Source of the DNA: Methylobacter sp.
GTDB taxonomy: Bacteria; Pseudomonadota; Gammaproteobacteria; Methylococcales; Methylomonadaceae
Length of the DNA: 64,000 bases
NCBI GenBank assembly: GCA_030684815.1
Contig: JAUXXQ010000233.1
Span: 1 to 64,000, forward strand
Direction: 5' to 3'
This document shows positions 57,866 to 61,664 of the stretch, piece by piece. The notes beneath the pieces were generated by a model, which was not told where the DNA came from, ran no database searches, and worked only from the letters and a program-made list of their open reading frames with translations. Position 1 is the first letter of the stretch; the number at the start of each line of letters is the position of its first letter. A program made the position numbers and the translations under genes.

Positions 57866-58345
57866 TCATTCACTCTTCGCTACAGCGGATTCTTCTGTAG
57901 CCGTCCAAATCCGATAATGCACCTCAAAATTATTGGGCACATAAACCACAACAGGCAGTTTGCTATTGTAAGCTAACAAGCCTTGCGCCGACTGCAGTTT
58001 TACCAATGAATCTTGCGGCTTTTGATCCGGCGGGCAGGCCATACGTGTCGAAGCCGGGCCGGTGACTTGGCCCAGTTTAAAATAAGTAAAACCCCAGCCT
58101 TGGGCAATTTCTTCAGATAACTGGCCGAGAAACCAGTGTTTGTTGCAATCGACTTTCATGGTTTTACCGATCATCAGCTCAACTTTATGATTAGCTTCAT
58201 TGTCCAGCGGCTGAAGGCGGATAACCATGCGTTTGTAACCTTGTTCCGCCGGAGGGTAAGGCTTCATGTCGTCAGGGGCGGCAAAAACAGCCGCACTCAG
58301 TAGAAAAAGAATGTTCGCAATAAGTAATTTGGCGGGATATGGCAT
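57866..58345 (-). CDS. eco: Ecotin serine protease inhibitor
   Basis: YPPAEQGYKRMVIRLQP, STRMACP, YNSKLPVVVYVPNNFEVHYRIW. Confidence 0.92.
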   Translation of the reverse strand: MPYPAKLLIANILFLLSAAVFAAPDDMKPYPPAEQGYKRMVIRLQPLDNEANHKVELMIGKTMKVDCNKHWFLGQLSEEIAQGWGFTYFKLGQVTGPASTRMACPPDQKPQDSLVKLQSAQGLLAYNSKLPVVVYVPNNFEVHYRIWTATEESAVAKSE

Positions 58346-58502
58346 TTTTGAATCCTCAGAATAGGGTGTCGGTGGATTGGTTAAATAGCACTCGGCAATT
58401 GCTCCTGCATCCCTGCAGTCGACGGATTACACAGATAGGGCGGATTTACACGGATATATTTTGAATGGCCGCTATCTTACGACAAGAAATAGGCGGAACT
58501 AC

Positions 58503-58535
58503 AGACCTTCCAGGTTTTAAAAACCTGGAAGGTCT
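58503..58535. repeat. Perfect 16-1-16 palindrome (empty form of the 61.4-kb element)
   Basis: AGACCTTCCAGGTTTT-A-AAAACCTGGAAGGTCT. Confidence 0.95.
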
Positions 58536-58598: not shown

Positions 58599-60637
<2,039 letters not shown>

Positions 60638-60695: not shown

Positions 60696-60765
60696 TGTAG
60701 GGTACGCTGCGCGTACCGTAATTTTGCAATTTGGCGTCGATAAGGTGCGCACAGCGTACCCTACA
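60696..60765. repeat. MITE-like inverted repeat, 14-bp perfect termini
   Basis: TGTAGGGTACGCTG ... CAGCGTACCCTACA. Confidence 0.9.
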
Positions 60766-60783
60766 CTATCGATCAAATGGCGG

Positions 60784-61429: not shown

Positions 61430-61513
61430 AGACCTTCCAGGTTTTTACTGGAGCCGCTCCCGACGGCTCCAGCACTTCCGCCATCCATGGCAGTCGTAAA
61501 ACCTGGAAGGTCT
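61430..61513. repeat. Palindrome interrupted by one 51-bp cassette
   Basis: AGACCTTCCAGGTTTTTA + 51-bp unit (61448-61498) + AAACCTGGAAGGTCT. Confidence 0.95.
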
Positions 61514-61568
61514 ACTTCGGCATGTTTGTCCCGCTTTAAATGGGGAGCCCTAAAAACGTAAGCAACAA

Positions 61569-61664
61569 AACACGGATGACACAAATAGGACGGATTTACA
61601 CGGTTTTTTTAAAATATGTCGCGCTTTTAATCAGCGATTCCGTTTCATCAGTGTCATCCGTGTT
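61569..61664. repeat. MITE-like element with 14-bp perfect inverted termini
   Basis: AACACGGATGACAC ... GTGTCATCCGTGTT. Confidence 0.8.

Follow-up and report, generated by a model that had tools for sequence, protein, structure and literature searches.

Tiny palindromic mobile repeats, among them the RPEs, the SDRs and the CGTC-type REPs, have been described for years with no enzyme known to move them. The cyanobacterial SDRs, attributed to Elhai and co-workers in 2008, are reportedly very small mobile repeats of ~20 bp with no known transposase. The RPEs of Rickettsia are small palindromic elements that occur in frame in unrelated protein genes (PMC10969869) and also in intergenic regions, again with no known transposase, and two of their families, RPE-4 and RPE-6, are REPs of the CGTC type (PMC3733652). 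REPs are also found within palindromes, as is the case for GTAG-23 of T. roseum, the GTAG-15 dimers of A. variabilis and the CGTC-1 dimers of H. neapolitanus, and empty target palindromes exist as well in T. roseum (PMC3733652).

The 51-bp element described here shares with the RPEs a small palindromic form, in-frame and intergenic locations and the lack of a known transposase. The RPEs, however, are ~150 bp long with a conserved peptide, whereas the 51-bp element is composed of two hairpins, is read in several frames and on both strands and belongs to a different bacterial class. It is set apart from the RPE families by their description and by its consensus, which lacks the CGTC tag, rather than by sequence comparison. 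With the REPs that reside in palindromes it has in common the placement of a small hairpin repeat within a palindromic repeat, and the presence of empty palindromes as in T. roseum; it differs in its 1–4 head-to-tail units, in the nesting of the whole within a MITE, and in its ends, which read CGAC... and ...GCGAC or ...CCAGTA and are neither GTAG nor CGTC. As in REPs and REPINs, no target duplication accompanies the element at the empty sites of hisC and an ATPase gene. Unlike REPs and REPINs, which flank a RAYT gene, it was not found within 1.5 kb of any of the 10 Y1_Tnp matches of this genome. Because the tags are missing, the 51-bp family is not considered a member of the REPs or RPEs despite the behaviour it shares with them. 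The SDRs are likewise reportedly tiny mobile repeats without a known transposase, and at ~20 bp they differ from a 51-bp element with covarying stems.

The window, which is the entire 64,000-nucleotide stretch of the Methylobacter contig that was analysed, contains an empty, a filled and a tandem state of one palindrome (Table 1), exactly where the preliminary description had placed them. Five palindrome arms are observed in the window against 0.02 expected from dinucleotide shuffles. The empty copy reads AGACCTTCCAGGTTTT-A-AAAACCTGGAAGGTCT with no insert and lies outside any MITE. In the filled copy (61430–61513), arms identical to those of the empty palindrome enclose 52 nt, corresponding to one centre base plus 51. 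The tandem state was described as two perfect units abutting the same arm, and two identical units are present within positions 1–104; the first base of the window is also the start of the contig, therefore the array is cut and holds at least two units. The tandem copy and one half of the filled copy belong to a larger MITE that was absent from the preliminary description, and the opposite end of the MITE beside the tandem array falls beyond the contig. The filled copy is interpreted as a junction of two repeat contexts, since it has half a MITE on one side and an unrelated flank (AACGTTGCAAGCT) on the other. The cassette-bearing palindrome 3' of guaB is absent in 22 congeners and unique to this genome, as seen in a 23-species alignment of the region downstream of guaB that is uninformative at the base level.

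Table 1. Coordinates of palindromes, cassettes, MITE ends and neighbouring genes in the window
Feature	Position	Strand
Bases forming a TA junction or the end of a further 51-bp unit	1–2	
51-bp unit 1 (CGACTG...CCAGTA) of the tandem array, which the contig start truncates	3–53	+
51-bp unit 2, identical to unit 1	54–104	+
Palindrome arm AAAACCTGGAAGGTCT adjoining the tandem array	105–120	+
Carrier-MITE end ACTTCGGCATGCTTGTCCCGCTTTAAATGGGAAGCC, with terminal repeat GGCTTCCCATTTAAAGCGGGAC on the reverse complement	121–156	-
Ecotin-like gene, flanking the empty palindrome	57866–58345	-
Empty 33-bp palindrome between tadA and the ecotin-like gene	58503–58535	.
tadA, flanking the empty palindrome	58599–59060	-
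Filled palindrome, left arm	61430–61445	-
51-bp cassette, sense on the same strand as guaB	61446–61496	-
Palindrome centre base of the filled copy	61497	
Filled palindrome, right arm	61498–61513	+
Half carrier MITE ACTTCGGCATGTTTGTCCCGCTTTAAATGGGGAGCC beside the filled palindrome	61514–61549	-
guaB 3' end (strand common to the cassette sense)	61685	-

A genome-wide search for the arm and the 51-mer with a tally of states, as the preliminary description had recommended, found the states recurring throughout the genome. The 16-bp arm is present in 326 copies (166 + 160, ≤1 mismatch) in the 4.29-Mb Methylobacter genome, with no copies of a reversed-pattern control, and there are 90 empty 33-bp palindromes (≤1 mismatch) and 69 sites of the 51-mer core. 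Sixty-six distinct palindrome copies were read from end to end: 37 of them are empty, 28 contain 1–4 units of 51 bp and one contains a 105-bp insert. These counts of empty and filled copies rest on draft assemblies, which break at these repeats. Cassettes at palindrome centres occur in either orientation, and their copy number varies, as had been suspected, with palindromes of 1, 2, 3 and 4 units found. Several other contigs end in or beside cassette arrays, and copy numbers at such contig ends are unreliable. Decay is seen at two loci with a 27-bp internal deletion where a sister species retains the full cassette. An assembly artefact was ruled out as the source of the states, which recur across many contigs and in other assemblies. 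The 105-bp insert (L180:13231-13367) is unrelated to the cassette and represents a second kind of element at a palindrome centre, with inverted ends AGGTAACGYGCAAAA and an apparent TA duplication.

Most filled palindromes of this genome sit within a MITE in which the position of the palindrome is fixed. This carrier is non-coding, terminates in GGCTTCCCATTTAAAGCGGGAC and GGCTATCAACTTAACGCGGGAC, which form ~22-bp imperfect terminal inverted repeats, and is flanked by 8-bp target site duplications (TSDs), resembling other MITEs with 8-bp duplications; the 51-bp element itself, in contrast, has neither terminal inverted repeats nor a TSD. With one base of end slack permitted, the TSDs of the 41 MITE copies read are perfect in 20 and have no more than one mismatch in 25. 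The MITE bodies measure 47 (empty), 98, 149 and 251 bp, thus increasing in steps of 51 bp, and the copies hold cassettes in both orientations as well as empty palindromes. Carriage by this MITE explains much of the cassette copy number here. Palindromes outside the MITE are found in other recurring flanks, and in unique flanks in the congener G011. At L054:2223, L047, L096 and L098 there is a related MITE that has GGCTACCCACTTAAGCCGGGAC as its terminal repeats but differs in its interior, and that may offer a lead to the parent IS of the carrier.

The proposal that the 51-mer is a small insertion cassette is borne out by relatives free of palindromes and by exact empty sites elsewhere, which identify it as a real mobile unit. 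CGACTGCCATGGATGGCGGAAGTGTCGCAATCGGTAGGGAACCGATGCGAC and close variants of it were found genus-wide without the palindrome, either single or in head-to-tail arrays (61 genomes searched). The 51-bp family is present in 33 of 201 Methylococcales genomes, or 15 of the 48 genera sampled, and a class-wide gammaproteobacterial sample of 271 genera contains its core motif in 16, with 0 for the reversed control. The cassette represents one subtype of this wider family of two-hairpin, 51-bp mobile elements of gammaproteobacteria. Searching phages with the cassette and palindrome, or plasmids with the tandem generic element, provided no match, and a literature search with sequence strings of the element returned papers on unrelated subjects. 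Two viral-labelled metagenome contigs from IMG/VR (L385, L386) share a copy of a related element.

Two genes show that the 51-bp family has been mobile in the past. Fixed anchors in hisC are separated by 10 nt in 11 species but by 61 nt in 2; in a P-type ATPase gene the corresponding distance is 10 nt at eleven loci, with a single species at 61 nt. Both gains are exactly +51, blunt and in frame, with nothing duplicated or lost; there is no TSD at either site, and the ends of the element are not inverted repeats. In nine host proteins, HisC and the ATPase included, the element is read through and Pfam matches to conserved families are obtained. Its in-frame presence in unrelated protein genes, as in the RPEs, extends even to essential genes. 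Open frames of ≥250 codons contain 42 of the 83 free copies with enough flank versus 222 of 332 control stretches, which indicates that genes tolerate the element and are not targeted by it; 22 of these 42 copies are sense and 20 antisense. The element is also in frame in a MurF-like ligase, a penicillin-binding protein and a CcmH/CycH-like protein, and in proteins carrying domains of SbcC and SbcD (L091, L336). SbcC/SbcD is a nuclease that cuts hairpins.

The history of the cassette was probably one in which a member of the 51-bp family made one or a few palindrome insertions and then spread with its hosts, undergoing tandem duplication, inversion and decay. Family members integrate bluntly and duplicate no target sequence, as the empty and filled orthologues show; their sites are unrelated and frequently lie in frame within genes. 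In an ancestor of part of Methylobacter, one or very few of them would have entered a dispersed 33-bp palindrome at its centre (T4-A/A4). The filled palindrome would have spread as a passenger of the MITE, as seen in this genome, and presumably also by whatever disperses the palindrome itself. Empty palindromes would mostly be copies that were never filled. Tandem growth within palindromes, to 1–4 copies with an exact 51-bp period, may have proceeded by slippage or unequal exchange. Exchange between the inverted arms, or template switching from one to the other, may have turned the cassette round, and deletions between short repeats may have eroded it.

The filled 84-bp palindrome could conversely be an original small MITE with the arms as its terminal repeats and the empty palindromes as its internal deletions, and partial cassette deletions do exist. 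The congeners G007 and G020 have 84 and 17 empty palindromes respectively, with no full cassette among the matches listed, and the palindrome centre in G011 is G or C in 8 of 13 sampled empties. The empties are not deletion products, because loss of a cassette cannot yield a G/C centre and because congeners have many empties and almost no cassettes. Genuine losses take other forms, namely the 27-bp internal deletion at two loci and a hairpin-only insert in G007. Together with the cassette relatives that are free of palindromes, this makes an original MITE highly improbable. The preliminary description had named an always-present 51-mer, with the copy at 58503 as a deletion product, as the finding that would overturn it; the empty palindrome is instead a genuine separate state. 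The suggestion of the preliminary description that the cassette targets palindrome centres is, as a repeated event, not supported. The junction, T4-A/51/A4 in the cassette orientation, is found at 133 of 137 left and 133 of 135 right junctions (counts in which loci overlap), and filled palindromes contain one subtype although other subtypes share the same genomes. This single phase and single subtype point to one or a few founding palindrome insertions. Repeated entry of a site-specific cassette into the centre is suggested by the MITE context common to filled and empty palindromes, by the unique flanks that filled palindromes have in several species and by the 105-bp insert of L180 at another centre, and a uniform junction could also come from strong target-phase specificity. 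Such entry is unlikely given the one phase and one subtype, the share of copies accounted for by MITE carriage and the lack of inverted-repeat preference at non-palindrome insertions (4.07 versus 4.03); conserved target bases were likewise not detected next to the left end of the element. A search with flanks from the congener G005 for orthologous empty and filled palindromes provided three useful pairs and no clean pair, with most loci replaced or rearranged between species. In the best pair, filled in G005 (L198) and empty in G000 (L220), the left flank alone is shared.

No mobilising enzyme for the 51-bp element was found, which counts against the history of few insertions followed by passenger spread. 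Hairpins, the lack of target duplication and a high copy number would all fit an element of the REP/REPIN type whose mover is a Y1 transposase (RAYT or IS200/IS605-like), and Y1 genes are present in this genome. The search for such a transposase that the preliminary description had advised was carried out and found no link to the element: no 51-mer core lies within 1.5 kb of any of the 10 Y1_Tnp matches in this genome. As the end tag GTAG or CGTC is absent and the left end has no conserved adjoining bases, movement by a Y1 enzyme appears doubtful. The best guess for the mover is that it may be a host-supplied route that processes single strands and hairpins.

The first hairpin of the element is CYGCCA-NGGA-TGGYGG and the second has a stem of 11 bp, whose loop ends in GGA in most copies. 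Across 34 distinct copies, chosen by the GGA in loop 2 and not by their stems, this structure pairs 91.9% of cells versus 77.5% when shuffled, and covariation is 0.428 compared to 0.169 ± 0.014 for shuffled copies and ≤0.106 for slid structures, with both-side changes at 9 of the 11 pairs of stem 2. In the filled palindrome, the arms are predicted to fold as a 16-bp outer stem. Loop 1 is CA-NGGA-TG, where N is variable and GGA constant; loop 2 mostly retains its GGA, a column that had served as a filter in one analysis, while its stem covaries. CsrA recognizes the consensus RUACARGGAUGU, and the spacing of its dual sites ranges from 10 to 63 nt (PMC7652899). Loop 1 matches this consensus, and the 24 nt that separate the two GGAs fall inside the range for dual sites. 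The element presents GGA in the loops of stable hairpins at a bridging distance, as do CsrA/RsmA-binding RNAs of the CsrB/RsmZ type, and csrA is present in 58 of 61 relatives, this genome included. The element might then be a portable CsrA/RsmA binding module, and the palindrome with tandem units a CsrA sponge. The element, however, is dispersed DNA without strand bias in genes and with both orientations in the MITE, whereas the GGAs lie on one strand alone; four loci had no match at E ≤ 5 to Rfam covariance models (CsrB, RsmX/Y/Z and others), and the GGA may instead serve mobility. A CsrA module is accordingly quite improbable and is put forward only as a hypothesis, because the absent strand bias argues against a general RNA role. 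If the CsrA-like hairpins were functional, they would provide a way of spreading post-transcriptional control sites.

A broader reading, held tentatively as possible, is that of an undescribed gammaproteobacteria-wide mobile element with blunt, coding-compatible integration by an unknown route, which forms composites upon landing in repeats. The route could, for example, involve an RNA or single-strand DNA intermediate recognized through the GGA hairpins, possibly with a link to CsrA. The locus illustrates how nested repeats build composite elements. The 51-bp family combines a fixed length, exact empty sites and in-frame insertions in essential genes with culturable methanotroph hosts, and the coexistence of empty, single-copy and multi-copy palindromes within a single genome amounts to a built-in assay site, so that the mechanism is directly testable.

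Further arrangements were observed at individual loci. A palindrome in the congener G013 (L068) holds a compound array with cassette ends on the outside and pieces of generic-type and inverted elements inside. In G007, a palindrome (L069:196-256) contains no part of the cassette except its second hairpin and forms a near-perfect long inverted repeat, which looks like quasi-palindrome correction. Within the window, an imperfect inverted repeat at 60698–60766 (GTAGGGTACGCTGCGCGTACC ... GGTGCGCACAGCGTACCCTAC) upstream of guaA is a candidate dispersed repeat. Similar stretches at 58428–58462 (ACACAGATAGGGCGGATTTACACGG) and 61577–61602 (ACACAAATAGGACGGATTTACACGG) lie one near each palindrome, and comparable sequence recurs beside other palindromes of this Methylobacter genome.
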